Of a stretch of DNA of 64,000 bases, positions 1,357-37,906 are shown one piece after another. Made by a program: the position numbers and the translations under genes. Within the stretch, counting starts at the first letter, position 1. Every line of letters begins with the position of its first letter. The stretch spans positions 34,210,063 through 34,274,062 of the forward strand of contig NC_056002.1 in the NCBI RefSeq assembly GCF_018446385.1, read 5' to 3'. The DNA is from Zingiber officinale (lineage: Eukaryota > Streptophyta > Magnoliopsida > Zingiberales > Zingiberaceae). The notes beneath the pieces were generated by a model. It was not told the DNA's origin. It did no database searches and was given only the letters and a program-made list of their open reading frames with translations.

Positions 1357-1778
1357 GCTAATTGATCGCAGCCGATCGCCGTCGACGATCGCCACACCAC
1401 CTGCGTGTAGTGGCCGCACACCTGGCCGGAGGCGCAGGTGTTGCTGGAGTAGTCGTAGTTCTGCCGCTCCGCCACCCAGGCCCCCACGGCGTCCGCCGCC
1501 GTGTAGTCGCGGCCGGATCCCCAGAAGATGTCCTCGCCGTAGGGCCCGCCCGAGTGCACCAGCTGGCAGTCCCTGGCCCGCTGGTTCGCGTAGTTCTGCG
1601 CGTACGCAGCCACCTGGCTGTCCCACGACACCGGCGGCAGACCCGCGCCGACGTTCGCGCGCGCCGCGTTGTGGGCGTTCACGTAGTCCTGAGGCGAGTT
1701 CTGCGGCACGACCGCCGGCGCAGCCGCCAGAGCCAACGCGGCGGCGCACACCAACGCCAGTAGGAATGATGACGTCAC
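1338..1778 (-). pseudogene. PR-1 (CAP domain) pseudogene, 5' part
   Basis: The translation is a pathogenesis-related protein 1 of the CAP/SCP family, a secreted plant defence protein. Seen: a hydrophobic Ala/Leu-rich signal peptide (about residues 1-24), the N-terminal CAP motif [13 protein letters not shown], the [17 protein letters not shown] segment, and [10 protein letters not shown]. It breaks directly after that motif: about 30 C-terminal residues (the CNYNPPGNYVG-type end) are replaced by four foreign residues and a stop supplied by the adjacent direct repeat. The expected start codon is GTG (1776-1778), not ATG, and no upstream in-frame ATG is present in the leader. A TATA box lies about 55 bp upstream. 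GC content is far above the surrounding DNA, as in grass-type PR-1 genes. Two independent lesions (start loss, C-terminal loss) make it a pseudogene. The missing C-terminus is found separately at 3076-3212. Confidence 0.85.
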
Positions 1779-1830
1779 CTCTAAATTAATTAGTAGTCGA
1801 TGAGAGAGCTCTGCTTCTGCTTCGCGGTGT

Positions 1831-1839
1831 TATTTATAG
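1831..1839 (-). promoter_or_regulatory. TATA box of the PR-1 copy
   Basis: On the minus strand this reads CTATAAATA, about 53 bp upstream of the PR-1 initiation position. That is a normal distance for a short-leader PR-1 gene, so the promoter core may survive although the coding region is broken. Confidence 0.6.
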
Positions 1840-1859
1840 ATCTCTAATGCCCTGAACAA

Positions 1860-2407
1860 AAACTAAAGATAAAGAAAAGTAAGAATTGAATAGTTTATTT
1901 ATTTATTTAATATCAATTTGATTCTTTTTTTCACGTCAAATCAAGGCAGCTATCTTAATTAGCAATTCTAATTAAAGATTAAAATTTACTCGATTTTCTT
2001 TTTCTTTCGTTTTAGTAAATTACCTAAATTTGAAAATTTTGTGGATAACAATTATTGTCCATGAAAATTCCACAATATTATCCTAATTAAAGATTAAAAT
2101 TTACTTAAAATTTTAAACCTAAGTCAAGTCATCGCCTCTGCAAATTCCTTTTCTATTTTTTTCCTCTCTTTTTCTTCCTCATTTCTTTTTCTTTCTTTTT
2201 AGTAAACTTAAATTTGAAAACTAATTAAATGGATAAGAATAATATATTGTCCATGAAAATTTCATAATTTGTATAAGAAGAAAAATCAGGGAACATATTC
2301 TTTAGATTTTTTTTCTTCTTATTTATGTCAAATATAATGTTGTTAATGTCAGAGTAACTCTTGGCCACGGAATTAATAGTGAACCCTGTCTATAATGTTG
2401 TTAATTT
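1860..2407. other. AT-rich intergenic DNA with local duplications
   Basis: No gene is seen. Two degenerate copies of a segment containing 'ttgtccatgaaaatt' occur near 2030-2100 and 2205-2275. A motif 'attaatagtgaacccy' at about 2370 recurs near 3735, so small dispersed duplications run through this region. Confidence 0.45.
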
Positions 2408-2513
2408 GTCAAAGATTAAAAGGGATAATTCCTTTACATGATTCCATAGAAAATTGGGGATGAGATGTTGAAAATAAATCTAAGGTTAATAATTTTCTAA
2501 AATGGTAGAAAAT
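2408..2513. repeat. 105-bp direct repeat, copy 2
   Basis: Second copy of the stretch at 1251-1356, in the same orientation. It starts at the shared 'caaagattaaaagggat' and ends at the shared 'aatggtagaaaa'. No PR-1 sequence follows it here. Confidence 0.85.
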
Positions 2514-3060
2514 TTGGCACACCATGACAAAATATTCGTTGTGAGATTATTTTTCCTAATAGAGTGGATACATTCAACTAATCTATTGAAGAGAATCTAA
2601 TTTTGACATATGTGTATATACAATGGTTTATTTTTTTTTAAAAAAAAACTGAAAATAAATTAATGCTAATATTATTATTATTTTTTAATTCAGTTATCTT
2701 CACCTTATTTCAGCTAGTCTTAGAGGTAGTCTTAGAGGTGGACAGACATCTCCCGGTTCGTCTATTAGATAAATTCGATAATATAAACTGTGTTCTAAAA
2801 TTAATCGGCATAACATGTGCCAACTAAAAAACACTAAAAGGCAATTTATCTCTGAAATTAATCCGCCGAAGTTCAGTTCAGACACCTAATTAATTATAAA
2901 AAAACTAAATTAGCAAAAAAAAAAAATCATATCATTAACCATGTTTTTCATTTCATCATTTCTAATCTTATTTCATTTCGTGGCCAGAAAACACACAAAC
3001 ATATTATTTATTCTTAATTATTTCTAGGCCTTATTTATTATTATTAACTATTCTTCATTA
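2514..3060. other. AT-rich intergenic DNA, no gene seen
   Basis: It contains poly-A and poly-T tracts and no recognisable coding or RNA feature. Confidence 0.45.
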
Positions 3061-3075
3061 TTATTGTAATTATGG

Positions 3076-3212
3076 CTAATACGGTCTTTCGCCGACGACG
3101 TTGCCGGGGGATTGTAGTTGCAGATGATGAAGATGGCGCCACTGTCGCACCGGATGCGTCCGCAGTCGATCGCCGTCGACGACCACCGCACCACTTGCGT
3201 GTAGTGGCCGCA
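3076..3212 (-). pseudogene. PR-1 (CAP domain) pseudogene, 3' part
   Basis: On the minus strand this encodes the C-terminal end of a PR-1 protein: CGHYTQVV, then a diverged STAIDCGRIRCDSG segment, then IFIICNYNPP. After NPP the family end (GNVVGERPY and a TAG stop) lies in the next frame. A single base is missing in the C-run of the PP-G codons, so the fragment ends in a frameshift but keeps the native stop at 3076-3078. It overlaps the 5' part at 1338-1778 by roughly 65 bp around CGHYTQVV and differs there by several substitutions. The two are therefore pieces of different copies, or one copy duplicated and then broken. The upstream sequence beyond 3212 is unrelated to PR-1. Confidence 0.8.
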
Positions 3213-3267
3213 ATGTGGACTTTTTTGTCGATTATTTGATTTTGCATGTTAACATCTATGAAAAGCC

Positions 3268-3478
3268 AAAATAAATAATGGACACCATATTTGAATTCCT
3301 TTTAATTTTAGAAATTCATAGAAATTGAAATGGGTGCAATCGGAACACTCTAGGTCCATCAGTGGATTTTGACCGAAACCCACTGATCGAACTAGAGAGC
3401 TCCGATTGTACTCATTTTAGTTCCAGTGGATTTTTGAAATTGCAAGGAGTTCAAATATGCTATTCGTTGTTTATTTTT
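3268..3478. mobile_element. Fold-back MITE, about 210 bp
   Basis: The whole element is one long imperfect inverted repeat. Two arms of about 100 bp (by eye 75-80% identical) are separated by a loop of only a few bases near 3371-3377. The outer ends read aaaataaataatgg on the left and, inverted, aaaataaacaacga on the right. Shared blocks include catatttgaa, gtgcaatcgga / gtacaatcgga and atcagtggattt / atcagtgggttt. A transcript would fold into a single long hairpin. I cannot assign a superfamily, since no clear target duplication is visible. Confidence 0.75.
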
Positions 3479-4690
3479 TACTTCTTCAAATGTATTAAAA
3501 TATTATAAAAAAATTGACTAATGTTGTTCATATATTCTGCTGATAAAAAAAAGAGAAGAGAGAGAAATATAATGAAGAAAAGAAAATGGTAAAAAAATCA
3601 AATTGTTAGGAGGGTAAAATAGGAAATGCACTTAAAAAAATACGTTCTTTGGTTAAATACCAAAGTAGTAAAGTAGTATATGTCTTTTGGTAAATTTAAC
3701 TCTTTATATATGTCTTTTGGTAAATTGCCGCGGGATTAATAGTGAACCCCGTTCATGAAAGGTGAGTTTGATTCGTTTAAGATAGACAAATGTTGGAGGA
3801 TTTGACACGTGTAGCTTGAATCAGTCAATGGGATCTTAATCCTATGGATTTATCTGGTGATGACATAACAAAATGATTAATTCATTATTATGTTAAATTT
3901 TTTGGTGTTAAGCAAATCTTAAGTAAGCATTCAATATTGTAAGTAGCTGACTTGATATCAATGAAAATCAAGAACGCCCTAATTGTCTATATCATTAAAA
4001 GACCGTTTCTCTTATACAAATTACTAAAATAATATTTTAACTATAATTTTCTACTTAAATTACTCTTCTATTGTCAATCGATTTAATAGTAGAAATATAA
4101 AGGATTAGCCTATACAAATAGTATGTTCACTATAAACACTTCATGAGAAGGTGCACATGCATATTGTGTTATTCCAACTAAGTTCTAACTGATGATGGCT
4201 AACATGAGTTACTAAAACTTGTCGTGGAGCATCCTGAACTCTCATTGGCCATTGCTGCATTAGTACACTTCAAACGTGCCTAAATTGCATGGAAATAGTG
4301 AAGTGGCCAGCAACAAATTAGACTTCAAATTTGGTTGGAAGGCATGGATGAGGGGATCCCCCGTACCCTAAGCCATTTCGGGCCTCTTTGCTGGCATAAA
4401 AATAACTTGTTTGTCGAAAATATTTTTTAGGATTTTTATAAAAGAAAAATAGATTATTTTCTGTTGTTTGTATTTGTTACTAAAATATGTTGGTGCCAAT
4501 ATAATATAGAAAAAATCCTTATCAAGATCAGGTTAATAAGGCAGCTTGGTGCAACTAGACCCTCCCAAGCCAAACTGCGAGGCACAACATGATGGAGTTC
4601 ATTGGCTCTGGAAGTATTTGAAACTTCTCATGGACTGCTGCCTCTCCAAAATTAATCTTATGAGTGATGGGAAAATGGGTTGAGAAATCT
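3479..4690. other. Intergenic DNA, no gene seen
   Basis: No open frame of note, no RNA gene and no repeat end is recognised. Part of the stretch (about 4220-4680) is less AT-rich and could be remnant genic DNA, but I could not match it to a family. Confidence 0.4.
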
Positions 4691-5299
4691 GAATGTAAAA
4701 TCTTAAACTCTATTCAATTTTTAAGAAATCATAAATATAATAACTAATATTATGAAAGCATACTATAATCCATAGTTTATAATTATAATTAAGTCCATAA
4801 ATCAATCTTTAATTCTAAATTTGACCATATTAATTTATGACTTATTTAATTGATGATATTAGATATTTATAATTATAATTATGATCCTAAAATTTTAATA
4901 ATCTCTCACTGGATCATATGTGTAAACTTATAAATGTGTTAACTTTAGTAAGTTCATAACTTTTGTCATCATAGTCATATGACTTTCTTAACAATCTCGT
5001 CTATTAATTATATATATATAGAATCATGTAATCTTTGTTGTATCTATCACAACTAAATTAAACCATCAATGGTCATGTACAGCAATGCAATCAAATGACA
5101 TGGATCAATCATGAATGTGTAGCATGAAAATTACATTCAAGGTGATCTATTCATTTTAATTTTCAACTCGTCCTTCTTAACTAAAGTGAGATCAAAACTT
5201 TAACTTAAGTTATACACATTGAACTTTATATTTTATCAGAAAATCTCTAAATACATAAGTTTCAACAACATAACCAAACATACATAGAAAACATATATA
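4691..5299 (-). other. Possible 3' end / LTR of old copia element E2
   Basis: This AT-rich stretch lies immediately downstream (minus sense) of the RNase H remnant at 5300-5796. A short purine-rich run near 4900-4910 (minus sense gtgagagattatt) resembles a decayed polypurine tract, which would make the sequence to its left the 3' LTR. I could not define LTR ends because the matching 5' LTR is not in the window. Confidence 0.3.
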
Positions 5300-5796
5300 A
5301 TACAAACTTTCACTAGATCTAGACTTCAACAAATTTAATAACACCCATATGAGTGGTATGCTCATAGAAGATATTGGCTGGTAAACCCTTCGTAAAAGGA
5401 TATGCTATCATGGAGTTTTTGCCATTGTGTTCTATCGAAATCTGTCCACTTTATACTCTCTATTTCACAGCAAGAAACTTGATATCAATGTGCTTTGATT
5501 TTGTCAAGCTAAGTTCTTATTATTGTTAGAATACAATACAACTGATCTATTGTCACAAAATAACTCCACTGATCTCTCAATCCTTTCCAAAATACACAGC
5601 CTAGAGATAAAATTTTTGAGTCATATTCCATGATTAGATACCTCGTAACATACTACAAACTCTATTGCTATAGTGGAATAAGCTGTCAGTGCCTGTTTGG
5701 CACTTCTCCATGAGATAGCTCCCTTGGCCAACAAAAAAACATAGCCTGAAGTAGATTTCATGTTATCTTGGCATCCCATAAAATTACAGTCAGAAT
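5300..5796 (-). pseudogene. Old copia E2: RNase H remnant
   Basis: In minus-strand translation this is the C-terminal part of a Ty1/copia polyprotein. Seen: KSTSGYVFLLAKGAISWRS, a Y-S-T-I-A-I-E-F-V stretch matching the T-E-A-E-Y/F position, LFCDNRSVV (DN catalytic Asp), and SKHIDIKF matching the HID-K-H motif. In-frame stops and substitutions mark it as dead. It is the distal piece of an element whose upstream pieces lie at 12785-13002, 13331-14115, 31013-31462 and 44369-44833. The upper border is the E1 insertion site, where 5792-5796 is one copy of E1's target duplication. Confidence 0.8.
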
Positions 5797-6048
5797 TGTT
5801 GGTGCAACCTTAGGTCAAGGTTGACCTGGTTGACCCGACTCGAGGTGACTTGACTCGAGTTGTATTTTGATGTTTGACTTAGGAAGATTGTCGGTGCAAC
5901 CTTAGGTCAAGGTTGACCTAGTTGAGTTGCATGTTGATGTTTGACACTCGTGAGAGAGTTCTATTCTTGATATGGGACAAGAATAGATGTTTGGGAGGTT
6001 ATTGGTGCAACCGTAGGTCAAGGTTGACCTGGTTGACCTGATTCGGGA

Positions 6049-6600
6049 AAAGTCCAAGCAGGGAGCTTGGCACTGGAAAAGTCCAAGTATGGAGACTTGG
6101 CACTGGAAAAGTCCAAGCAGGGAGCTTGGCACGAAAATCTGTAGGTGCAACCGTAAGTCAAGGTTGACTTGGTTGACCTGATTCGGGAAAAGTCCAAGCA
6201 GGAGCTTGGCACGCGGAAAGTCCAAGTATGGAGGCTTGGCACGGGGAAAGTCCAAACAGGGAGTTTGGCACGGGGAAAAGTCCTGGTGAGTGAAGCCAGG
6301 CAGTCGGGAAATCCTGGTGAGTGAAGCCAGGTGAAAATCCTAGTGAGTGAAGCTAGGTGAAGGTGAAAGTCCTGGTGAGTGAAGCCAGGCATTCGGGAAA
6401 ATCCTGGTGAGTGAAGCCAGGTGAAAATCCTAGTGAGTGAAGCTAGGTGAATGAGAAAGTCCTAACTGGGATGTTAGGCAGTTGGAAAGTCCTGGTGAGT
6501 GAAGCCAGGTGGAAATCCTGGTGAGTGAAGCCAGGTGAAAACCCTAGTGAGTGAAGCTAGGTGAAAGTCCTGGTGAGTGAAGCCGGGCAAGGGAAAATCC
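6049..6600 (+). repeat. Two tandem arrays in the E1 U3
   Basis: The first array has units of about 28-30 bp containing AAAGTCCAAG...CTTGGCAC. The second has units of about 26-38 bp containing GGTGAGTGAAGC. Unit number differs between the two LTRs: the 5' LTR has an inserted partial duplication of the LTR start near 6143 that the 3' LTR lacks, while the 3' LTR (11211-11450) has extra AAGTCCAAGTATGGAGACTT units. The short ORFs called here simply translate the repeat. Confidence 0.9.
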
Positions 6601-17023: not shown

Positions 17024-18230
17024 GGCAGCATTAGGGAATCGCGGATCAGTAGGAGGTTGAGGACGGGATTGTGGTCTAGAAGAACCCTCACCCGACTCTC
17101 CAACCTTCTATTTCTTTCTAAAGGATGGGAAAACAATGCACAAGATGGAATAACGTGATTGAGCATAATGCAAAGAAAAGAAGAGAAAAGAAAATGCCGT
17201 GCACATGATGCATGAACGAAATGCACAAAAAAAAAGAAGCAAAATTAGCCACAATCAATTGACAAAAACAAAATAGAGAGGAGAAGAAAGAAAAAGAATG
17301 GAGGAGTTACCTAGGGTTAGGCATATTGAGCTCCGCGACGAGGGACAGTCTGCGAGCCCCTTGTCACCGAGAGAAGGGGAACGGAAGTCGGAGAGGAAAA
17401 AGAGGGCACTCGGTGTCGGAGAAGGCCGTCGGAGAAGACGGCGGACGAGGTGGGAGGAGCGCCGAAGAAATCACCTAAGCGCTAGAGGGAAAGAGTCGGG
17501 AGAGAAAGAAAGTTGGAGTGAGAGAAGACTTAGGTCAATCAGAGAGTTAAGATGGGTTTTAAATTTCCAATCGATCGAGAACACATGAATCGATCGGACG
17601 ATCGATTCACAAGGCCGCTATAAGAATCGAACATGCGTCTGAATCGATCCATCGATCGATTCAAAATGCGCTGAATCGATCCATTGATCGATTCAGATGC
17701 CTTCTGCAAATATCGATTACGCGTTCCAATCGATCCATTGATCGATCGAAACGCGCTGAATCGATCCATCGATCGATTCAGACGCTCTCTGTGATGAAAA
17801 ACAAGCCTCCCAATCGATTAACTAATCGATTGGGAAGGCTGATATTTCTGCACTTCTGAAACTTTCAGATCCAAGGATTGGAAATGCACAAATAATTGTA
17901 CACGCCTCTAAAAATCATGAAATTTTGTGTAGACACTATATATGTCTCATATTATCAAGGAAAAATAAAGTTTGACATAAATTGATTCTTCTTAGCGAAA
18001 ACTTATACAAAATTAAAAGGTGTCAAAAACTTTAATACTTTGAGTAAGTATGTATCCAATTGTGCAATGATAACTCTCATCCAACAACAAACTTCAATCA
18101 AGGTTTCAAACAAAAGTTTTATACATATTGTAAATTTGAAATTTCTAATCATAATCGTAGGGCAAAGTGCACATGATTTGTGCACCTGCTTTTCCTATGA
18201 TTGGACAAATGAATGTTTCATATGAAAACC
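17024..18230 (-). other. E3 spacer with palindromes
   Basis: No confident gene between pol and the env-position ORF. 17565-17840 carries repeated AATCGATCCATCGATCGATTC-type palindromes, like those in the LTR but with a CCAT/CATT centre. A charged Arg/Glu-rich open frame on the plus strand at 17298-17588 is composed of low-complexity purine-rich sequence and is probably not a gene. The right border is the CACTA insertion (TSD acc at 18228-18230). Confidence 0.6.
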
Positions 18231-18470
18231 CACTACAAGAAAAACCCTCATAGACATCGGCGGAACAACAACGGTTTTAAGCAAAAATCGATGTCTTTGA
18301 GTATTTTACACCGATTTTTCTAAAAACCGATGTCTATGAGCGCAGATTTTCGCTCATAGACATCGGTTTTTTTAGCCGATGTCTATGAGCGCCTTTTTTT
18401 CATTAATAGACATCGATTTTAACCACGGTTTTTAAAACACGATGTCTATGAATCAAAATTTTGGCGGACT
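18231..18470. repeat. CACTA left terminal and subterminal repeats
   Basis: Contains the terminal repeat and about eight copies, in both orientations, of a motif near ACCGATGTCTATGAG / CTCATAGACATCGG. In CACTA elements such arrays are the transposase-binding sites. Confidence 0.85.
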
Positions 18471-18889
18471 TTCTTAGCGCGATTTCTTTTGGGCTTCACC
18501 TCGCCCATCATAAATCGAAACCCTAATCCTCTACATCCTCTTTTTAGGAGTAACCATTTGAAAGATGAGCAACGAATCTCTCGACGGCGATGTGGACGGC
18601 GGCGGTCGTCAGCGCTGTCACGGTCTACTGGTTCAGGTGGGTGATGGGCTCGGCGGAAGTGAAAGGCAAGCGGACAGTGAACTTTAAGATGTGATCGAGT
18701 ACTGGTCCTTCTTTCTCCGCTCCAAGGAGGGCCTAGCACCATTACTATATTAGTGAAGTGAGAGCTAGATCCCCTTGTTTCCCCGATCTGATCGCCATCC
18801 GAACTCCTAGCGTTCGACGCCCGGCGACTCCTTCTTGTTCCGGCGGCCTCTCCAGCCCTTCCTCTCCCCCTGCATATCTTCCATTCTTG

Positions 18890-19165
18890 ATGCAGGACAA
18901 GGCGGCCGCGGAGGACGGCGAGAAGGAGACTTTTTCGAAGAAGTCGCGCCACTGCGAAGCCGAGATGCCCCTTACTGATTCCGAGGAAGACTCTTTCCCG
19001 TGGAGGAGATCGTCCAGTACCCTCTTCCGGGATACGTCGCTCCCTCTTCCATCAGCTTCAGCCCCGATGGGCGCTTGATCTCCTATCTCTTCAGCCCCGA
19101 TGGTACCCTCCACCTTAAAGTCTTCGCCTTTGACGTTGCCTCACGGCGGCAGGAGCCCTACTGTT
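18890..19165 (+). pseudogene. Captured dipeptidyl-peptidase-IV-like N-terminus
   Basis: From ATG 18890 the frame reads MQDKAAAEDGEKETF...SRHCEAEMPLTDSEEDSF. After one frameshift near 18998 it continues PVEEIVQYPLPGYVAPSS, ISFSPDGRLISYLFSPDG and LHLKVFAFDVASRRQEPY. This matches, from memory, the N-terminus and first beta-propeller blade of plant DPP8/9-like S9B serine peptidases (prolyl oligopeptidase family). Only about 92 codons are present; the catalytic domain is absent. GC content is much higher than in the rest of the transposon, as expected for a captured first exon. The ORFs on both strands here overlap this fragment and are not separate genes. Confidence 0.7.
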
Positions 19166-19199
19166 CCTCCTAAGCGCCGATTCTTTCTCTCGCGCAATC

Positions 19200-19480
19200 C
19201 CTAATTTTCGTCATCGTTGTTCCTCCTGAGCACCAATTCTTTCTCCTCCCTAACTTGCTCTTGCTGTCGCCTCTCCTCTCACCCACGCTCATCATCTCTA
19301 TCGCTGCTCCTCACCCTTTTTCCTCCCTAACTGACCCGCTCTCGCTGTCGCTGCTCCTCTCACCAACGTTCATGCATCCTTGTCTGCGCCGCCTCCAGGC
19401 GCTGCCAACCGCCGGCCTCCAGCCACCTAAGCATCCTTGTCACCACCGCCTCCAGTCGCCTAAGCAATCTGAAGTTTTAT
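19200..19480. repeat. Tandem duplication, C/T-rich, inside the CACTA
   Basis: A segment of about 75-80 bp containing TCCTCCCTAACTTGCTCT and GCTGTCGCCTCTCCTCTCACC is repeated imperfectly, followed by a duplicated 'gcatccttgt...gccgcctcca' piece. It lies directly downstream of the captured peptidase fragment. An open frame across it is low complexity. Confidence 0.6.
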
Positions 19481-19499
19481 AGGTATTTCTTTGTTACCT

Positions 19500-21060
19500 G
19501 ATACCTTTTGTTTTTGTGTACTTTTGATTTTGTCAATCTGAACCCTAGAGAGAAAGGCAAGAACTTTTGGAACCCTAGAGAGAACATTTTGATCCGCCTC
19601 CAGCAGCCTAAGCATCCTTGTGTACTGTTAATTTTGTTAATAAGGTCCTTGGATAATTACTGATATGGCAAGAACATTTGGAGATTTTTTTTTATCATTC
19701 AGACGATTAAAACGTTCACTATAGGATATTCAGACCCTCCATCACTGCATTCTGTGCAAGCTGGAAGATATGCACTAGGAGGAAGCTTTGCTGGTAAGGC
19801 AGATATATGATGATTTTGATGCTTTAGCAGGGTTTGATTTATGCTTAATGAATTCCAATTTTCATAATGCAAGTCCTAGAACTCCTTGGCAATCAGGCCG
19901 ACTCTCCTTGGCAAGCTTGCAAAACAATAGATTTGTAGATAGGGAGATTGACACTAGAGCTTCAACTAAGCTTTTTTTTTTTTTGTACATTTGTTAGTCT
20001 GACCCCTAACATGCAAGTTGTATTCCAAAAATTTGCTAGCCAAATTCTAGCCTAACAACATTTTTTTTATTGTACATGTCTTCGGATACAGGTTGCCATC
20101 TGCAGTCAATCTGTTTACTAGCACATATTTGAATACTATGGCATAAGTACTAAAATTGCAACTTCATTACCATACTAACACTGTAACTATGCTATTTTTT
20201 TAATTGTACATGTGTTAGCTTGATCCCTAACAACATGTATGTACTATTCTAGTCAAATTCTAGCCAACACATGTTAATTTGCTTGATCCCTAACAATCCT
20301 TATTTCTACGAATAAATAGCTAGCCAAATTCTTAAGTTTCAATAAAAGTTGCACATAGACTTAGTAGCACATAGACTTAGCACATAGACTTGCTTGTTTT
20401 CTATGCTTCTTCAGCAACTCACTTTAAAACCTCAATTGCAGGAATAGAAGGAAGCAGTGAGTGGAGGTTTTGGTCTAAGACATCGGAAGCTTAAGCTTTA
20501 AAGGTCTTTCCTTGTTACCTTTCTTATTATACTTGAATTTCACTTGTAACTTAGTTCTTTATTTATGAATGTTAAATTTACTATATATGCATTTTAAAAT
20601 TCAACAATTTGTCATAATTTTAAATTGATTTTAAGAACATCCATAATGCCAACTATAGATATGCCAACACTTGGAAATTGAAGTTAGATGAACGATAGAT
20701 AATAATCACACAAACCAAAATGATAAAATGAAGAACATCCATAATGCCAACTATATGAATAGTAATTACATGTTAAATTGGCCAGGAACATCAACAAAGG
20801 ACCATGAAGTATTATAGTACCATGATATATTATCGACAAATTGACTATATTGATTATGTATTTATGATAAATATTGCAATGCTTATCATCTGACAAACAA
20901 AGTTGCCCTGACTCCATATGAATCTTTCACATTTCCTGGTTCATCTAAATAGTCAAGTGGTTAATGTTTTAAGTCTCAATTATTTTGTCTAAGATGAAAT
21001 CTAACCGAAGCATATCTGTAAGTTGGGGTTTTGACTAAAACATGATAAAGAACAATATTG
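19500..21060. other. CACTA interior, mostly unidentified
   Basis: AT-rich sequence resembling introns. A short open frame at 19788-19997 (+), containing QIYDDFDALAGFDLC and SPRTPWQSGRLSL, might be another captured exon, but I do not recognise it. Repeated 'cttgatccctaacaa' phrases near 19990-20300 indicate local duplications. Confidence 0.4.
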
Positions 21061-21070
21061 ATTTGCTCAC

Positions 21071-21193
21071 ATTTCTCTTATCATAGAGATAGAAAAAGAA
21101 CTGAGATGGTGAAGAGTACTCCTCAGAGTCCATGTTATGTGCCATGGCAATAGCTCCATACACAGAAAGAGGAAGCACAGGCAGCTCTTCGTC
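21071..21193 (-). pseudogene. Captured exon, chloroplast cyclophilin-like
   Basis: On the minus strand one clean 41-codon exon reads DEELPVLPLSVYGAIAMAHN, MDSEEYSSPSQFFFYLYD and KRN. It is bounded by an AG acceptor (…gatag|gac) and a GT donor (aat|gtgagc). The combination of PLSVYGA-AMAH, EEYSSP-QFFFYLYDKRN is, from memory, that of plant thylakoid or plastid cyclophilin-type peptidyl-prolyl isomerases of the CYP26-2/CYP28 kind. It is the only captured fragment in minus orientation. The family name is less certain than the exon structure. Confidence 0.5.
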
Positions 21194-21368
21194 CTATCAT
21201 TACCAAATTTAAAAAGATGATCTAAGCAAGAATTGAATAACCCATTAACCAATTATCACCAATGAATCGAATTGATCGATCTATGAGAGAAATCTTTCAG
21301 CTCTTGTTCTAGTGTTGTGATTTTGGTTTGAGATTCTAAACTTCGATTTGATAGCAGGAACTCCGAGG

Positions 21369-21847
21369 ATGTTTAGTAGGCTTTTAGGAAAGCCCAAAGA
21401 GCAAACCAGCGCCTTGGCAACTATCGAGAAATTATATGAGGTACTTCGATCTTCCCATCTTGTTTCCCGTTTCTTGACTACGAATCGTAAGCTAAAACTT
21501 GATTGGTTGGGCTTCGTGGATTGTGAAGCTTTTTTTATGTTTGTTTGGATACATGATGTGGAAGCCCAACTTCAACCTGTTCATGAAAAGAAAACAGTTC
21601 TGCTTTGCCTAATAGAATGGTTTAATCTGTGAATAGTATTCATAAGAGCATGAACACATGTTTTGGGCCACAAGTTTAGGGTTTTTTTTGTTGTTGTCAG
21701 AGTATCAGTGGATGATACATTTCTAATCATCACTCTATATGTTTCAGACACTTGAAATGCTCGAGAAAAAGGAGAAAGTTCTCCTTAAGAAGTCTGATGT
21801 TGAGATCGAAAAGGCTAAACAATTCACCAAAACTAAAAACAAAAGAG
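21369..21847 (+). pseudogene. Captured SNF7/VPS32 exons 1 and 2 (ESCRT-III)
   Basis: Exon 1 (21369-21440) begins at ATG and encodes MFSRLLGKPKEQTSALATIE and KLYE. It ends at a GT donor and is followed by a 307-bp intron ending TTTCAG. Exon 2 (21748-21847) encodes TLEMLEKKEKVLLKKSDVEI, then EKAKQFTKTKNKR, and ends at a GT donor (gag|gtgag). This is the basic N-terminal alpha-helix 1-2 region of plant VPS32/SNF7 (CHMP4), the main filament subunit of ESCRT-III in endosomal sorting. Phases join correctly and both frames are open, so a spliced transcript could still read through. The rest of the gene is missing. Confidence 0.85.
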
Positions 21848-22348
21848 GTGAGATTAATCATCTGGCCGTACAAGTTTATGGTTCACTTTTTTGTCCATGA
21901 CACAATATGTTTTTCAACAAAGGTGATCTAGCCAAAATACCAAATTGTTCTATCACAAATTATTTATCCTGTGTGACAAGTATTAGTCTGTGTATGAAGC
22001 TTCATACTTATGCTACGACATACACTTGTTGTCATATGTTTTAGGTTATAATATTGTCATGCTAATTAGATAGAGTAGATTGCTTTGGGTGGTATTTTTA
22101 CCTTTTTTTGGTCATTTGCTTAGTATGATAAGTTTCTTTTTATCTATAATATTTGGATATCTGAACTTGTTTATTTGACATACTATATTCTCTTCTTGAT
22201 TGTTCTTTGGGTAAGATTTTTTTTTAAAATTTCTATTTTATTATATATTCTACTCATCTTGAAAAAATTTTGCTATATTTTTCACATTCATGTAGATTGA
22301 AAAAATTTATGTCACCTCAGTTGACCTAGATTCTCCTTTGTATCACAG

Positions 22349-22444
22349 ACTCGAGTTTACTTGATACTAGAATATGCAGCTAAAGGTGAACTCTACAAGG
22401 AACTACAGAAGTCCAAATGCTTCAGTGAGAGGCGAACTGCTACA
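22349..22444 (+). pseudogene. Captured Aurora kinase exon
   Basis: A single open exon flanked by CACAG acceptor and GTGAGT donor encodes [20 protein letters not shown] and [11 protein letters not shown]. That is the beta-5 strand, hinge and alpha-D region of plant Aurora kinases (EYA-(K/R)GELYKELQK is characteristic). Catalytic-loop and activation-loop exons are absent. It is in the same orientation as the SNF7 exons 0.5 kb upstream. Confidence 0.85.
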
Positions 22445-22754
22445 GTGAGTTCTTTGCAAACACACACTAACGGTTATCAGTGTATGAGTTTTTATCTATT
22501 ATTGTCAATGAAGGACTAACACTCTAATCATGTACCCATAGAATTTGCAGTTCCTTTCTCACTGTATGTACAAGCGTTGTGCATTTGCAAATTTAATGAG
22601 GCTAGTGTGTCTGCAAACTTGAACAAATGTTCTGATAATTTATAAGCTTTATGTGTTTTTTTAGAAATGTCTTAAGGTACTTCTTAATGAATTTTCCCAT
22701 GTTGTCCAGGTACTTCTATAGATTCTTCCTCATGATATTTTTGTTTATCATGGC

Positions 22755-22916
22755 AATGTCCAGAAGTCTATGGCAGCCACTTCTGCTGAGGGTGGCCTTG
22801 ATCCCATACTTGCCTACACTGCCGGAGCAGAGATCGAGCAGCTGCAGTGGTCTTCCTCCCAGCCCGACTGGGTTGCCATTGCCTACTCCACTAAGCTTCA
22901 GATTCTGAGAGTTTAA
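22755..22916 (+). pseudogene. Captured TTG1/LWD-type WD40 protein C-terminus
   Basis: In one frame this reads [40 protein letters not shown] and STKLQILRV, then TAA at 22914-22916. The AGAEI-QLQWSS-QPDW-AIA-S-K-Q-LRV ending is that of the plant TTG1 / LIGHT-REGULATED WD1 family of WD40 proteins. They act with bHLH/MYB factors in epidermal and pigment control, or in the circadian clock. Only the last WD repeat remains. The native stop codon is preserved, so 3' UTR sequence of the donor gene may follow. Confidence 0.82.
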
Positions 22917-24440
22917 TGGAAAGCAAATGGATATTAGAGCAGTAAAGATATTGCCTTTGATTCTATTTACTGAACTGGTACCTGGTAGCACCCCACTCAA
23001 TTGATTTCATAATTAGTGCATAGCTTCATTTCATGTGCTATCATTTCTCTATTGCACTAGGCTTTTGATTATTTTTGGGGTATAGTTTCCTTATTACTTG
23101 CAGGATCAGAATACTAGTTGGATGAATTGTTTGGATCCTCTACTGGCATGTTCTTCAGTTTGCCTTTTTTTTTTGAATTTACTGATAACCTTCTTGGGCA
23201 TTAAAATTATATTTTCTTTTCTATTAGAAACTTACATCTTTGCAGATGTTTGCCTTCTTCTGTGTATCTTCCTGCTTAACTTTATTTAGTTGCTTTTGAT
23301 CTTTGTATAGCACTAGTTATACATTTTTTTTTAAGAGAGATGATTTAGGCGTGTTTAAGATCTTGGTGGATGATTCATTGGATTCGTGGTGTTGGATATT
23401 GTCAGGTAGCTCTTGTAATTCCCTGTGGTTGAACATTTTGAAGTGGAACTGGAGGTATATTTGGAAGTCAGTGTTTAGGGTTGCTGTAGAATGATGCTTT
23501 GAATTGTTGTTATCTGGAGCTTTGATCTTTTGCTTCACTGAACTTATGCAGGAATGTAAAACATTAAGGATCCTGAGATATAATTTTCCCATGTTATCTG
23601 GAGCTTTGATCTTTTGCCATGAATTTTTTCATGTTATCAATGAAAGTAACATGATACTTTCTTATATGATGTATTTTTTTCTTTTCTTTTATTTATTTAC
23701 TTATATATATGATTGCATCTATATATGGTTGAAATTCATGTTGACTAGTTAGCATTTTAGCTATTTTCCCCTTGAAATAAAAAATTGTTTTGATGTTATT
23801 GTATCATTGGAAATCATATAAATGAATTGATGTTACTCATCTTTATTACTGTTGAGGAATTTATTTACTTTTCATGTACTCTTAGTGATAAACAGTTATG
23901 TCATTTGAGTCGACTACTAATGAATTGAATTTCCATGTACTCTTAGTGATAAACAGTTTTCAGGAATGATAGATCTATCACTATATGATGTGGTTGAGAT
24001 AATTGATGAATGTTTCTCTTTTTAAGCATTCCAATTAGTCATCTTGTTACTTGGTGCTCTTACTGTTTTTTCAACTATGATTTTTAGTCTTGGTTTACTA
24101 ATATATTATTTATGCGTTTTTACAGTTTACAAATCTCAAGTACTCTAGAGTTGAAATTGATGAAGTGCGGTTCGAGTGGGCCGAATGCATGCTAGATTAC
24201 ATTTGAAGTGCGGTTCTACCTTAATGTGTTGTTAAAAGAATGTTCTACCTTGATTCTGATATCTATTAACTTTTGATGTAAAAAGAATGTTTGTGTATTT
24301 TATGGATACTGTTGTAAGAAGAATATTTATGTAATTTGTGAATATTTATGTATTTTATGGATACTATTGAATGAAGAATATTTGTGTAATTTGTGAATAT
24401 TTGTGTATTTTTTTTGTTACTGTTTCGGAAATCAAATTTG
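22917..24440. other. CACTA interior, unidentified
   Basis: AT-rich and intron-like, with short direct repeats: 'ttatctggagctttgatcttttg' occurs near 23508 and 23595, 'catgtactcttagtgataaacag' near 23873 and 23934, and 'gaatatttgtgtaatttgtg' near 24325 and 24378. No captured exon is recognised. A short frame near 24150-24210 is not assignable. Confidence 0.45.
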
Positions 24441-24449
24441 TACTGTTAA

Positions 24450-24773
24450 AAAATATTGATATTACATCGGTTTTCCACCGCTGCAAAACTGGTGTTATTA
24501 ACTAATATTACATCGGTCGTATACCGCTGCCAAAACTGGTGTTATTAATATATAATATTACATCAGTTTTACACCGTTGATGAAACGGTGTCGTTAAGTG
24601 ATACTACACCGGTTAATAACCGATTCGAACACCGGTGTCGTTAAGTGATACTACACCGATTTTAAACCGATGTCTAAAATGACAGACTTTTGACATCGCC
24701 TTCATAGACATCGGTCGAAAATGTAATAGACACCGGTGGAAAACCGATGTCTATGAGGGTTTTTGTTGTAGTG
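24450..24773. repeat. CACTA right subterminal and terminal repeats
   Basis: Contains repeated blocks such as ATTACATCGGTTTTCCACCG and 'ctgcaaaactggtgttatta' (three diverged copies), then ACCGATGTCTA motifs in both orientations, and the terminal repeat GTTGTAGTG. The right end is organised differently from the left: it has 55-70 bp repeats rather than the short motif alone. Confidence 0.85.
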
Positions 24774-24954
24774 ACCACTTTTCTTGACCAAAATAATGCA
24801 TCATAACAAACATCATGACCAAGATAAATGTCCCTAACCTCTCACCCCATCTAAATCATAGTAAGAGGACAATCCTATGTTCTTGTGAGAGGCAATTTTA
24901 AGGTGAATAGAACTTAAATAGCTTTACCTATAAAGTGATCATGGAGGATGTGAT

Positions 24955-25530
24955 TTAATCAATACAACACATTCCCAATTCCCTTCTAAGAAAGCTAAAT
25001 TCAACTTCGGGAAGAGGTTTAGTGAAGATATCGGCTAAGTTTGATTTTGATCCAACATAATTTAAAATGATATCACCTTGAGTTACATGATCACGAATAA
25101 AATGATGTTTAACCTCTATGTGTTTCGTTCTTGAATGATGAACGTGATTTTTGGTCAAGTTGATTGTACTCACATTATCACAAAGAACTTGAACATTGTT
25201 ATAGGTAAGTTGATAGTCCTCTAGAGTATGAGTCATCCACAATAATTGTGATACACACTCTCCCATGGCAATATATTCCGTTTCGGTTGTGGAGAGAGTG
25301 ACACAATGTTGTTTTCTACTTGACCAACTTACTAAAGAAGATCCTAGAAATTGACAACTACCACTAGTACTTTTGCGATCCAATTTGCATCCGGCATAAT
25401 CGGAATCGGTATAGCCCACTAGGTCAAAAGTTTCGGTTCTAGGATACCCAAAACCAACATTTTGAGTCCCCTTGAGATAACGAAGAATTCGCTTAACGAC
25501 ACTCAAATATGACTCCTTGGCACAAGATTG
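24955..25530 (-). CDS. E3 RNase H
   Basis: The C-terminal domain of the E3 polyprotein. Seen: VVKRILRYLKGT; the first catalytic Asp in GYTDSDYAGC; RKSTSG; SSRKQHCVTLSTTETEYIA (catalytic Glu); the Asp in VLCDNVSTI; RTKHIEVKHHFIRD; and the Sirevirus/copia ending ADIFTKPLP. The domain looks complete. It is in frame with the RT ORF upstream and separated from it by one TAG codon about 8 codons before the start given here, so in the intact parent the two were one polyprotein. Confidence 0.9.
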   Translation of the reverse strand, partial: QSCAKESYLSVVKRILRYLKGTQNVGFGYPRTETFDLVGYTDSDYAGCKLDRKSTSGSCQFLGSSLVSWSSRKQHCVTLSTTETEYIAMGECVSQLLWMTHTLEDYQLTYNNVQVLCDNVSTINLTKNHVHHSRTKHIEVKHHFIRDHVTQGDIILNYVGSKSNLADIFTKPLPEVEFSFLRRELGMCCID

Positions 25531-26541
25531 CTACCGTGCACATATACCTACGGCAAAAAGTATGTCGGGTCTACTAGCCATAAAATAGAGAAGACTCCCT
25601 ATAGCACTACGATACACCTTGGAGTCAACTTCTTTCCCCTCAACGTCTTTATCCAATTTAGTACTAGTGACCATGGGAGTAGATATTTCCTTTGCATTTT
25701 CCATTCCAAATTTCTTAAATAGCTCTTTGACATATTTAGATTGATGAATGTAAATGCCTTCTTTTGTTTGCTTAATTTGTAACCCTAGGAAAAATGTCAA
25801 TTCACCAACCAAACTCATTTCAAATTCACTCTCCATGTGATTAATGAACTCATTTAAATAATCTTTATTTGTAGAACCACAAATAATGTCATCTACATAT
25901 ACTTGGGCCACAAACATATCATTACCACTATTTTTCAAGAATAAAGTGGGATCAATTTTTCCTCTATGAAGCCCTTTTGATACTAGAAATGTTGACAATC
26001 GTTCATACCAAGCCCGGGGAGTTTGTTTTAGCCCATATAAGGTCTTTTTAAGTTTATATACATGATTTGGATACTCCAAATTTTCAAACCCCGGTGGTTG
26101 CTCAACATATACCTCTTCTTTTATAACACCATTCAAAAATACTGATTTTACATCCATTTGGTACAATTTGAACCCCTTGTGGGCGGCAAATGTCAACATC
26201 ATCCTAATTGACTCCAATCTTGCTACGGGTGCATAAGTTTCATCATAGTCTAACCCTTCTACTTGATTGAAACCCCTAGCAACCAATCTAGCTTTATTTC
26301 TCACAACTATCCCCTTATCATCAAGTTTGTTTCTAAAAACCCATTTTGTATCAATAATCGATTTATTTATAGGCCTAGGAACTAAATCCCAAACTTGACT
26401 TCTCTCAAATTGAGATAGTTCATCTTGCATTGCTAAAATCCAATCGGGATCAAACAAGGCATCATCAATGGTTTTTGGTTCTATTTGAGATATCAAGGCG
26501 ACTTGGCTTCCTTCATTTCTAAAGCAAGATCGAGTTCTCAC
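25531..26541 (-). CDS. E3 reverse transcriptase (copia RVT_2)
   Basis: RT domain of about 250 residues with all main motifs: [36 protein letters not shown], the first catalytic Asp in [12 protein letters not shown] (residue 130), [27 protein letters not shown], the YVDDI active site (Asp 217 and 218), FFLGLQIKQ and a [13 protein letters not shown] end. The first Asp motif has S instead of the usual T/A in KSVFLNG, which is minor. The frame stops at a TAG just after it and continues in frame into RNase H. This is the only recognisable intact RT in the window. Confidence 0.92.
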
Positions 26542-26796
26542 TCCTTGAGTGATGTCTCATACTACTTGATCTAAGGAATGATTTACATGAATCCTAGTAG
26601 GTCTTGATTCTTGATTTATTATAATTTCGGGTTCAAGTGGCAAAGATTCATTTTTCTCACCATCACTTTCTTAATTTTCTTCTCCTTGATGATCTACTCC
26701 ATCCAGTGTTAATTTCTCTAACTCAAAACGTATTTCTTCATCGTTTGTTCTTATAGAGTTCAAAGAAGGATTTTCTTCAAAGACAACATTTAGTGA
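26542..26796 (-). other. E3 integrase-RT linker, broken
   Basis: The low-complexity linker between integrase and RT. In-frame stops are seen on the minus strand, for example around 26665 and 26550. Confidence 0.6.
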
Positions 26797-27254
26797 TTAT
26801 TCAACTAATTTTGATCTTTTGTTGTAAATTCGATACACCTTACTATGACTTGAGTAACCTACAAGGATCCCCTCATCCGCCTTAGCGGAAAACTTTCTCA
26901 AGTGATCTTTGATGTTTAGAATATAAACCTTACACCCAAACACTCTAAGATGCTTAATTGTAGGTGGTTTACCAAACCACAACTCATGAGTGTTTTTCCT
27001 AGAAACCTATGTATTAATGTTCGATTTTGTACATAACATGCCATATTAATTACTTCGGCCCATAGGAAACTATGAAGTGAATATTCATTTAACATGCTCT
27101 GAGTGGCCTCTTGCAAAACCCTATTTTTCCTCTCAACAACTCCATTTTGTTGAGGAGTTTTAGGGGTGGAAAATTCATGTTTATAGCCTTTTTCTATACA
27201 AAAATTTGTAAATCTATCATTTTCAAACTCACCTCCAGGATCACTTCTTATCAT
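26797..27254 (-). pseudogene. E3 integrase catalytic core, C-terminal half
   Basis: Reads RSDPGGEFEN (second catalytic Asp), FSTPKTPQQNGVVERKNR (catalytic Glu) and FLWAEVINMACYVQNR. After a frameshift near 26985 it continues WFGKPPTIKHLRVFGCKVYI and EGILVGYSSHSKVYRIYN, the usual end of a copia integrase. A second frameshift near 27253 separates it from the upstream half. Both breaks are one- or two-base changes, and either could be a sequence error or a real lesion. Confidence 0.85.
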
Positions 27255-28162
27255 GTTATCTTATGAGTCTTTTCATTTTCTACTCTATTACAAAAAGCAA
27301 TCAAGGTATCTAGAGTTTGATCCTTATGTTTCAAGAAAAACACCCATGTATATATAGTGTAATCATCCACAATCACAAAGCAATATCTACTACCATTTAA
27401 AGAAATATATCTACTACTATCAAATAAATTCATGTGAATGAGCTCTAAAGCATTTAAGGCACTTACAACATTTTTACCTTTATGAGTAGCTTTGGTTTGC
27501 TTACCCATTTGACATGCATCACATATTTTGTCTTTTTGAAACTTCAACTTTGGCAATCCTTGCACCAACTCCTTCTTTGAAAGGTTTTTGATATTCCTCA
27601 TGTTGGTGTGAGCAAGTCTCCAGTGCCAAAGCCACGTCTCCTCTTCTTTGGACATGAGACACTTAGCAAACACATTAGTAGCACCAAATAGTTCAGCTTG
27701 ATAAATATTTTCTCTTCTATGGCCTATGAGAATATTAGTATTTAGTTCACTATGCTTGATTAGACATTGAGATGAGTTGAACTCAACTCCATAACCCGAA
27801 TCACATAGTTGACTAACACTTAAAAGATTAAAGACTATGCCTTTCACTAATAACACATTTTTTATTACAATTTTTTTCGAAATTCTAATATCTCCTATTC
27901 CTATAACTTTTAATTCACCACTATTACCAAAAGAAATGGTACCTTTACTTTTGTGTCTAAATGATGAAAATTTTGACGAATCTTCTGTCATATACTTAGA
28001 GCATCCACTATCTACGAACCATGTTGTTGGATGCTCCCCCTTTGCGCATGCCTGTTTAAACACGATGAACCAAATGTTTTGGTACCCATACTTTGGGTCC
28101 GGTAGCATCAATAACAAATTACTTGGGTACCCAAACTTGAACAAACTTAACCCTTGAAGCAT
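27251..28162 (-). pseudogene. E3 protease, GAG-pre-integrase and integrase N-terminus
   Basis: Aspartic protease motif WFVDSGCSKYM (DSG at residues 51-53) with the following G-IGDI region. Then comes the GAG-pre-integrase zinc finger LWHWRLAHTNMRNIK...CDACQMGKQTK (HHCC type) and the first integrase catalytic Asp in FVIVDDYTIYTWVFFLKHKD. It ends in the frameshift described for the next entry downstream. Confidence 0.9.
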
Positions 28163-28562
28163 GATTTCTACTAATTAGAGACATGAATTTAACTTCCTTA
28201 TCTTGTGATTTAAAACCTAGTCCCACTTTGTTGTACACACCTCTTTGAGCGCCTAGAATCATGTCTAAGTATTTTGAGCTAGAAGTAAATTTTTCTAGAG
28301 CACTTCTAAGATCATCAACTTATGATTTCAACGATATATTTTCCTTTTTAAGATCATCAAAATCATCTTTGTCATTTTCATGAAGCATGCAAATTTCACA
28401 TGGCACAATTTTATTTTTAAGTGATTTACATTCATTTTGTAATTTTTTAACCTTCCCTTTTGATTTAGCTAGTGCATTGGTTAAGCATGCAATGGTGGCA
28501 TACATCTTATCAAACTTGGGGGAAATTACCTCATCATCACTAGATGATGACTCACTTGAAGA
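28163..28562 (-). other. E3 gag-pol linker with coiled coil
   Basis: The 61-codon open stretch 28320-28505 (AKSKGKVKKLQNECKSLKNK, DDFDDLKKENISLKS) is a coiled coil joined to an acidic Ser-rich region. Stops on both sides break it from gag and protease. Similar coiled coils follow the zinc knuckles in E1, E5, E9 and E10. Confidence 0.65.
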
Positions 28563-29696
28563 CTACACATCCTCTCCATGACTATCTTCATCTTCACTAT
28601 CTTCAACATGGCTTAAGGCCATGAGAGCCATGTGCTTTGAGCTCTTCCTTTCATCTTCTTCCGATGAGCTTGATGATGAGTCGTCCCAAGTGGCTTTCAA
28701 AGCCTTCTTCTTTTTCTTGATCTTTTCCTCTTGCTTCTTCAACTTTGGACACTCCGTTTTGTAGTGCCCCTTTTTCTTGCATTCATAGCAAATTATATCA
28801 GTCTTAGTCTTAGACTCCACAAGAGATTTACCTTTTCTCTTTTTATCATTGAAAATCTTCTTGACATCCTTCTTGTCAAACTTCCTTGAATGTCTCATCA
28901 TTCTTCGAACAAAGTTTGCCATTTCACTTGATGATAGCTCTTCATCACTATCACTATCACTATCTTGCTCAGATTCTGAAGATGCCACCTTCTTCTCCTT
29001 TTTCTTTTCCTTGTGCTTCTTTTTGCTCTTTTCACCTGCAACCAAGGCTATACCTTTCTCTTTTTGGCTTGTGTTAGCTTGCTCATGCAATTCAAGTTCA
29101 CAAAATAATTCATCCAACTTTACTATTGACAAATCCCTTGATACCTTATAGGCATCCACCATGGATGACCATAATGAGTTTCTTGGGAAAGATTTCAGGG
29201 CATACCTTATGAGATCTCGATTCTCTACACTCTCTCCAACTGAATGAAGACCGTTTAAGAGTTCCTTGAACCTACCATGTAGTGAACTTACCATTTCTCC
29301 ATCCTTCATTGTGAAATTTTGAAGTTGATTTATCAAGAGGTCTCTCTTTGCAATTCTTGAATCCTTGGTGCCTTCATTTAGCTCAATGAGCTTGTCCCAT
29401 AAATCCTTGGCACTCTTGAAAGGTCCAACCTTGTTGAGTTATTCCGAGCTTAATCCACATTGAAAAGTCACAATCGCCTTTGCATTTGCTTGAACCTTTA
29501 TTTTTTGTTCAACGGTCCACCTTGGTGATTCAAGCATTCTTCCATTTTCGGTTGGCGCCGTGAATCCCTCTGTGATTGAGAACCACATGTCAATTTCGGT
29601 CATGAGATATTGTTCCATGCGGCTCTTCCAATAAGCGAAATTACTGTCTTCATAAAATGGTGGTCGTGAAGTACTATGCCCCTCCTTCAATGACAT
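28563..29696 (-). pseudogene. E3 gag with one in-frame stop
   Basis: From the ATG at 29694-29696 (MSLKEGHSTSRPPFYEDSNF) the frame runs through FAYWKSRMEQYL and the UBN2-type capsid region (INQLQNFTMKDGEMVSSLHG, RFKELLNGLHSVGE). A Lys-rich and acidic Ser tract follows, then the zinc knuckle CYECKKKGHYKTEC and an acidic tail. A single stop at 29439-29441 interrupts it after about 85 codons. Copia gag forms the capsid and binds RNA through the knuckle. Position right after the primer site agrees. Confidence 0.88.
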
Positions 29697-37298: not shown

Positions 37299-37906
37299 TT
37301 AAATTTTTGAGGGAGATTCCATCCAACTTTTATTCGACCATTCATGGAGGTTCAATGCCACTTGATCAATTAATGTATATGCTTCATCTACACTCTTGTC
37401 CATAAAAGAACCTCCAGCTGATGAATCTAACAAACACTTATTTGAGAAAGAAATTCCCCTATAGAATATGTGTAAGGTCAGCCATTTTTCAAACCATGAT
37501 GAGGGCATTGTCTTTGTAGACTCTTGAATCTGTCCCATGCTTCAAATAATGATTCTCCATATGCCTGAACAAAATTTGTGATGCAATTCCTCATATAAAT
37601 TGTTCTACTTGGAGGGAAAAAATGCTTCAGAAATTGCTTCTCTAATTGTTTTCAACTTGTGATGCTTTGAGGACAGAGAGAATATAACCAAGCCCTTGCT
37701 TTATCCTTGATACTAAAAGGAAATGCCATCAATCGAACTGTATCTGCTGACACTCCTTCACAGTTCACCATATCACAAAGCTCTAGAAATGTCTCAAGGT
37801 GCAGATAAGGACTTTCTGATACTTCTCCTCCAAATTTGTGACCTTGTATCATGAAAATTAACTCTGTGTCTAGTTGGAAACTTTCTGCTTCAATATAAGG
37901 CTGCAC
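37299..37906 (-). pseudogene. E6 Athila-type gag, frameshifted
   Basis: Two open pieces, 37652-37906 and 37299-37538, in different frames. The first has HLETFLELCDMV...ADTVRLMAFPFSIKDKARAW and LYSLCPQSI. The broken intervening part has LFEAWDRFK; the second has WLTLHIFYRGISFSNKCLLD, SSAGGSFMDKSVDEAYTLID and NLHEWSNK. These correspond to the retrotransposon gag domain of Athila elements (F-L-FPFSLKDKAK-WL ... FYNGL ... AAGG-(L/F)-K---EAYELIE-MA-N). There is one frameshift near 37600. Confidence 0.82.

Follow-up and report, generated by a model that had tools for sequence, protein, structure and literature searches.

A non-autonomous CACTA transposon of ginger with pieces of several host genes and a three-lineage body

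We analysed a 64,000-nucleotide stretch of the Zingiber officinale (ginger) genome, hereafter the window (C17:34210063-34274062, where C1, C2 and so on are contigs of the 3.09-Gb, 211-contig genome that was searched). Window positions 18231-24773 are one non-autonomous CACTA transposon of 6.5 kb. Six named host genes and one gene-like locus without a name have each contributed a piece to the element. Positions within it are written 'el', el 229 being window 18459. The ginger assembly is haplotype-resolved and described as 3.1 Gb in 11 chromosome pairs with a scaffold N50 of 141.27 Mb (PMC8342452, in the part available), and neighbouring contig numbers are almost certainly homologues, as for SNF7 on C21/C22 and CYP37 on C19/C20. 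At most 40 candidates were scored in each genome DNA search (14 of 14 for SNF7); copy numbers are thus lower bounds, and given this partial scoring donors and copies may have been missed.

Element ends, insertion site and further copies

The ends of the element consist of the following features.

18228..18230: target-site duplication ACC, left copy, read directly; a single ACC stands at the paralogous empty site L041
18231..18260, plus strand: 5' terminal inverted repeat CACTACAAGAAAAACCCTCATAGACATCGG
18248..18451, both orientations: 5' subterminal array of CCGATGTCTATGA, 7 sites
24444..24756: 3' subterminal repeats, with 47-bp units at 24444-24679 and 4 CCGATGTCTATGA motifs at 24667-24756
24744..24773, minus strand: 3' terminal inverted repeat
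24774..24776: target-site duplication ACC, right copy, read directly

The two terminal repeats are 30 nucleotides each, begin with CACTA and are 97% complementary. The 30-bp terminus occurs at 2530+2487 sites in the genome (at most 2 mismatches), against 0+0 for a reversed-pattern control. The CCGATGTCTATGA motif has 12 sites in the window (at most 2 mismatches) where 1.2 are expected, in both orientations; 11 of them lie within the two arms and the remaining one at 20474-20486. The longest frame of the element does not exceed 201 amino acids, and a Pfam scan of 10 element open reading frames (of 117 stop-to-stop frames of at least 30 amino acids) returned no transposase family. These results bear out an earlier sequence-only reading of this DNA, which had reported near-perfect 30-bp terminal repeats, a 3-bp ACC duplication, subterminal arrays and the lack of a transposase.

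The element sits in a retrotransposon-like repeat. In its right flank, minus-strand frames at 24955-26556 resemble, by reading, RNase H and reverse transcriptase of the copia type. A search for an allelic empty site through the left flank was abandoned, as this flank is repetitive (best other match 94%), and paralogous copies of the host repeat were used instead. At L041 the joined flanks align without gaps over 600 bp at 98%, with a single ACC and no element. A second host-repeat copy, L042, likewise gives a 600-bp alignment in which the element is absent; at the ACC itself this copy differs.

A search of ginger's own genome with the whole element identified four further composite copies, giving five in total on C17, C1, C8 (two) and C10.

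C1:59343680-59350357: composite copy, duplication GAA
C8:93950914-93956632: composite copy, duplication AAT
C8:91165504-91188897: composite copy, duplication GTA, interrupted, with some 17.7 kb of other DNA in between
C10:40122145-40131143: composite copy, duplication TTG, also interrupted

Because CACTA ends are abundant in this genome (exact 13-mers at 4474+4375 sites, reversed control 67+72), two stray ends around unrelated DNA, or nested insertions, could in principle mimic a single element. The five copies share one inner order and have different target duplications, and an empty site exists. These observations refute the stray-ends explanation, whose probability we regard as negligible, and tie both termini to one element, as the sequence-only reading had assumed.

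None of the five composites has a counterpart on the paired chromosome among the matches scored, which suggests that the insertions are young. The only flank-sharing pair among 21 right flanks compared (2 of 23, L011 and L014, were too short and were left out) is a group C insertion common to C7 and C8; group C is introduced below. In three of the five composites el 4221-5094 is absent, and with it the LWD codons. The window copy has a 93-bp deletion between two TTTGA repeats; the LWD donor retains the stretch, and so do 12 of the 12 other copies that were fetched across this site.

22956..22960: site of the 93-bp deletion in the window copy, its size read in the donor and two copies

The C8:91165504-91188897 copy is split after el 4170, with a second occurrence of el 4165-4170 beyond its insert. 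By reading, this insert starts with TGTTGG and finishes with CCAACA, like a long terminal repeat (LTR) type.

Captured gene pieces and their donors

The interior of the element contains seven pieces.

18459..18730, plus strand: SMT2 (sterol C-24 methyltransferase 2), covering the 5' region and the N-terminus and lacking 33 bp by deletion
18731..19156, plus strand: DPP-IV-like peptidase, N-terminal piece, frameshifted
19711..19877, minus strand: spliced (intron-free) piece of an unnamed gene-like locus (L074 on C14, allele on C13)
20666..21266, minus strand: plastid cyclophilin CYP37, coding exon about 21074-21193
21268..22205, plus strand: SNF7/VPS32, two exons (21369-21440 and 21748-21847) with introns, 1 bp from the CYP37 piece
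22313..22462, plus strand: Aurora kinase, one exon (22349-22444) with both splice sites
22749..23587, plus strand: LWD (TTG1-like WD40), C-terminal codons, stop and 3' region

The sequence-only reading had named five gene pieces. All five are real, and the count was too low by two, namely SMT2 on the plus strand and the spliced piece on the minus strand. Since Pfam searches with the bare pieces were weak (CYP37, Aurora), empty or irrelevant for the rest, the identities rest on the donors. A PDB match of the LWD piece to RecA, its only one, is unrelated and was disregarded.

Four pieces have donors elsewhere in the genome at 1.6-2.6% mismatch, so the sequence-only reading withstands its own condition that a lack of donors would refute it. 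The DPP-IV piece (el 501-926) matches C10 at about 25394319-25401059 on the minus strand, with 11 mismatches in 426 positions (2.6%) and 7 gap columns; an exon for the DPPIV_N domain lies about 5.5 kb downstream. The CYP37 piece (el 2436-3036) matches C19:2870647-2871247 at 97.5% (15 mismatches in 601), with an allele at C20:2627770-2628370, and downstream exons are present at the donor. This piece also matches the solved structure of chloroplast CYP37 (E 4e-17). The earlier call of a minus-strand plastid cyclophilin holds in both identity and orientation. The SNF7 piece (el 3038-3975) matches C22:3003501-3004192 on the minus strand at 97.45%, introns included (19 mismatches in 937), with an allele on C21; beyond the captured stretch the donor has further exons up to the C-terminus. 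The DPP-IV, CYP37 and SNF7 donors were read over some of their exons. The LWD piece (el 4519-5357) matches C16:21593391-21594452 at 97.7% and 98.1% (10 mismatches in 631 in the larger part), where a stop-free frame is open over LWD residues 8-346. The SNF7 and LWD donor matches extend through introns or 3' sequence. Among 65 LWD matches in the genome, 53 are C-terminal pieces, including the window's own, and 8 are full-length LWD/TTG1-type genes; the remaining 4 were left out, one being a match at 61% and three being partial or to other WD40 proteins.

Two pieces are more distant from their nearest genes. The Aurora piece matches Aurora kinase B (E 3.5e-10), and the nearest Aurora gene among the candidates scored (best 133 of 3638) is on C14 (L048), at 88.7% over 150 bp (17 mismatches, 11.3%). 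The SMT2 piece matches its donor, C17:1942998-1944077 on the minus strand, at 89.3% over el 229-468 and 100% over el 468-500, with a mismatch of about 9% (22 in a 243-column part).

The spliced piece matches the C13/C14 locus in two parts around a 318-bp GT-AG intron that is exactly missing from the element, which indicates passage through RNA at some stage. The same intron is missing in a related element on C3. On C2 a relative that also lacks the intron aligns to more of the element (19679-19946). The C13/C14 locus is probably a gene, judging from its frames and intron; Pfam and PDB searches returned no name for the piece.

The SMT2 N-terminus (residues 1-118 or parts) is also amplified elsewhere, with about 90 loci among the 113 matches scored (best 113 of 220), for example L056-L066. 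At the fetched loci the SMT2 piece lies beside a 5' arm like that of the element. All 11 fetched copies, chosen for a stop-free frame of 170 amino acids, encode SMT2 plus about 50 other residues. Their ratio of nonsynonymous to synonymous differences (pN/pS) is 0.44-1.18 against the donor and 0.54 in pooled pairwise comparison, values that are biased by the choice of copies with an open frame.

Three lineages, their joints and their history

The composite is a three-part mosaic of multi-copy elements, F, E2 and C, joined near 19155 and 22305. Lineage F (el 1-926) contributes the 5' end, SMT2 and DPP-IV. Lineage E2 (el 923-4072) contributes the spliced piece, CYP37 and SNF7. Lineage C (el 4076-6543) contributes Aurora, LWD and the 3' end.

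19153..19156: F/E2 joint, with a shared 4-bp GAGC
19157..20665: lineage E body
22303..22306: E2/C joint; E2 homology runs to el 4072 and C homology from el 4076
23636..24440: element tail common to lineages C and D

Each lineage is also found without the others. The 5' part alone (window 18480-19156) is matched by 25 of 40 scored hits, 7 of which coincide with SMT2 matches. In one F element (L050) the DPP-IV piece runs beyond the joint, to 749 bp as against 426 in the window element. A further 6 of the 40 scored hits are non-composite, begin at or after 19153 and share parts of E2. In a C5 element (L013), for which no 3' end was found, CYP37 and SNF7 lie next to the element's own 5' terminus, and the C3 element (L049, duplication AAA) has CYP37 without SNF7. 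In the whole-element search 12 loci match el 4076-6543 only. The lineage C Aurora piece extends upstream into an N-lobe exon and HSP90, and for one group C element this longer piece gives an alignment at 77.7%. The only group C locus read to its 5' end is a complete 5.1-kb relative on C15 (C15:43149758-43154873, duplication ATA), with HSP90, two Aurora exons and LWD. Its HSP90 part is a multi-exon piece that reads as the cytosolic type (L039:6259-8101 into L020) and lies upstream of the other two; one HSP90-like frame reaches Pfam E 2e-36 and a second has no Pfam hit. A group D of 19 further loci matches the tail and not the LWD stretch; two subtypes that were read carry other filling between el 4517 and 5406. 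The sequence-only reading had this element collecting all of its pieces, a picture that does not survive the finding that most pieces occur in other lineages without the rest.

The junctions differ in kind. The SMT2/DPP-IV border is blunt (donors on C17 and C10), and a 1-bp filler separates CYP37 from SNF7, whose donors are on different chromosomes (C19/C20 and C21/C22). Sharing of at least 4 bp, as for GAGC at the F/E2 joint, occurred in 2.1% of 20000 random joints. The LWD exit shares a 6-bp AATTTT with the element; at least 6 bp was shared in 0.27% of random draws, but several such motifs are present in the element. An exact-match script gave 17 unmatched bases at E2/C and 10 at the LWD entry, partly from substitutions, and inspection by eye leaves 1 bp of filler at the LWD entry. 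At two borders there are short, out-of-order stretches that come from the donor.

20633..20657: 25 bp identical to part of the CYP37 donor but out of order, immediately beyond the edge of the CYP37 piece
23594..23617: 24 bp identical to part of the LWD donor but out of order, immediately beyond the edge of the LWD piece

These out-of-order copies suggest template-switching repair. We consider it highly probable that this is a Pack-CACTA element of a high-copy subfamily, one unit at five sites and a three-lineage mosaic, whose pieces were captured by template-switching repair and joined by repair or fusion, and which was moved in trans and has no coding function. Breaks inside earlier elements would have been repaired by copying ectopic templates, with switching, so that single pieces were captured. 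The lineages would then have been joined, either through repair or because neighbouring insertions fused and lost their inner ends. The composite, with two compatible termini retained, would have been moved by CACTA transposase supplied in trans.

Alternatively, all capture and joining may have proceeded through fusion of neighbouring CACTA insertions that swept up the intervening DNA, which is the Catoni model of Pack-CACTA as it is given in the available parts of PMC8903248 and PMC13317346. The same texts report fusion for Pack-TYPE elements, and both joints of the composite, F/E2 and E2/C, are element-to-element. Moreover, the C3 element has a second, internal 5'-type terminus CACTACTAGAAATATGATC at L049:1685, and the same sequence stands beside the same body at L013rc:1266. 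The second terminus suggests that fusion is also occurring here. DNA swept up in this way should come from a single uninterrupted locus and be bordered by remnants of the elements, yet CYP37 and SNF7 are 1 bp apart and SMT2 and DPP-IV abut bluntly with donors on different chromosomes, and short out-of-order donor copies are not expected from fusion. We therefore think fusion unlikely as the sole process. The C3 element itself (L049:1051-4828) is probably complete and has the look of a fused pair, with 5'-type CACTA termini at 1051 and 1685; its right end coincides with the point where homology to L028 stops.

Mismatch to the donors is 1.6% for LWD (larger part), 2.0% for SNF7, 2.5% for CYP37, 2.6% for DPP-IV and 11.3% for Aurora. 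At the rate of 6.5e-9 per site and year taken from a ginger paper (PMC8342499, in the part available), the young captures date roughly to 1-2 million years ago, and those of Aurora and SMT2 are several times older. All of these ages are likely overestimates, since mutation is faster in methylated transposons.

Several observations weigh against capture by template switching followed by joining and movement in trans. First, the junctions do not all point the same way, and both short out-of-order copies may have arisen later by local duplication. Second, no direct donor of Aurora was found among the candidates scored, the nearest gene having 11% mismatch. Third, group D is read here as an arrangement that preceded the capture of LWD, though it may instead have lost LWD. 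Fourth, divergence is uneven between the parts of the composites. Relative to the window, the other composites differ by 0.5-1.2% in CYP37, 1.0-1.9% in SNF7 and 2.3-3.3% in DPP-IV, and by 2.9-4.2% in the tail; the arms, compared over window 18231-18480 and 24531-24773, differ by 5.2-7.2% (5') and 4.5-4.9% (3'). In its 3' arm the window copy also resembles two group C copies (2.5% difference) more closely than it does the other composites. One fusion event with subsequent spread is thus not a clean account, and repeated fusion or later exchange is possible; CpG-rich arms that mutate faster may be an alternative cause. Finally, neither the element's termini nor its subterminal motif was found within 1.5 kb of the transposase in any of 6 fetched loci.

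Transposase_21 genes are abundant in the genome, all of the 150 scored being above the cut-off (best 150 of 6544 candidates). The autonomous CACTA partner that the sequence-only reading had proposed to look for did not emerge, none being linked to the element's ends among the loci examined. Two long C1 stretches between 13-mer ends, L053 and L052, were rejected as partners when no transposase frame was recognised by reading among open reading frames of at least 110 amino acids. L053 (C1:6733296-6742130, 8.8 kb, duplication AAA) has the same end family as the element, and L052 belongs to another. By reading, the frames of L053 are endonuclease- and reverse-transcriptase-like, as in a non-LTR retroelement. 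L073, which lies 8.6 kb from a C1 transposase, is of a different CACTA subfamily. Among random 13-mer sites, 1 of 8 (L003) is rich in the element's subterminal motifs.

Two further features were seen in the window. Copia-type gag/pol frames lie in several pieces at 24955-29438 on the minus strand (by reading), with the RNase H frame adjoining the CACTA element, which is just downstream. A snoRNA, snoR71 (RF00097), lies at 37491-37596 on the plus strand (58.8 bits, gathering score 40).

Coding potential and known systems

The element most likely has no coding function of its own, and its captured exons can at most serve as cassette exons for transcripts that cross it. The sequence-only reading had suggested a real exon-shuffling vehicle, and an expressed one would produce a chimeric protein or a regulatory RNA under selection. 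The splice sites of the SNF7 and Aurora exons are retained, and SNF7 exons 1 and 2 splice to an open frame of 57 amino acids. There is also a precedent in Tgm-Express1, whose exons are spliced into host transcripts (PMC1947982, in the part available). However, splicing from SNF7 exon 2 to the Aurora exon is immediately out of frame, the DPP-IV piece is frameshifted, SMT2 has its 33-bp deletion, and the pooled pN/pS of the SMT2 frames comes from a related but different copy group and is open to bias. An expressed vehicle is unproven and, in our view, would be very surprising.

A broader proposal is that this subfamily, with about 5000 recognisable ends, is a combinatorial recombiner of gene fragments. 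Template switching would capture pieces one by one (one of them spliced), and repeated exchange of cassettes (HSP90, Aurora and LWD; the spliced piece and CYP37; SMT2 and DPP-IV) would then yield seven-piece composites. A small number of the chimeric frames that have been amplified, for example the SMT2-derived one of 170 amino acids, may be becoming genes. We put this forward tentatively, as a possibility that is more doubtful than probable.

Whether inverted-repeat transposons capture gene pieces by fusion of neighbours or by template-switching repair is still debated. In ginger, donors, elements that lack single captures, separate lineages and fused composites all survive in one haplotype-resolved genome, which makes the junctions readable and the sequence of events testable. 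Caution is also warranted with gene models in such genomes, which may be transposon mosaics, as the preponderance of LWD tails over full-length genes illustrates. The word CACTA does not occur in the main text of PMC8342452 or of the other ginger genome paper, and we found no report, among the open-access papers searched, of this family or of separate and fused lineages surviving in this manner.

Gene capture by CACTA elements was already known, as the sequence-only reading had noted. Tgm-Express1 and the maize Pack-CACTA elements are of the same kind as the ginger element. CACTA elements of Chenopodium likewise contain host gene fragments, but there, as far as the available text of PMC8978399 describes, each element has one gene (Neprosin, AP2) and keeps a transposon domain beside the fragment. 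Pack-TIR gap filling (FoSTeST) shares template switching and short shared sequence at breakpoints (PMC8277862, in the part available); that work concerns animals, whereas the ginger junctions are few and mixed. Pack-CACTA/Pack-TYPE elements of Arabidopsis, rice and maize have CACTA ends, no transposase and coding DNA from several loci, and element fusion has been reported for them. The ginger element differs in that it joins three gene-carrying CACTA lineages, and relatives without LWD or without SNF7 persist.

The closest precedent is Tgm-Express1 at the wp allele of soybean, a non-autonomous CACTA element of 5.7 kb with pieces of five unrelated host genes, exons and introns included (PMC1947982, in the part available), so that the ginger case is less exceptional than the 'unusually rich' one first supposed. 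The ginger element fits seven pieces, including an already spliced one, into 6.5 kb and is known here from DNA alone. It also lies in a retrotransposon-like repeat rather than a gene intron, and its related multi-copy lineages, in contrast to Tgm-Express1, hint at how it was assembled.

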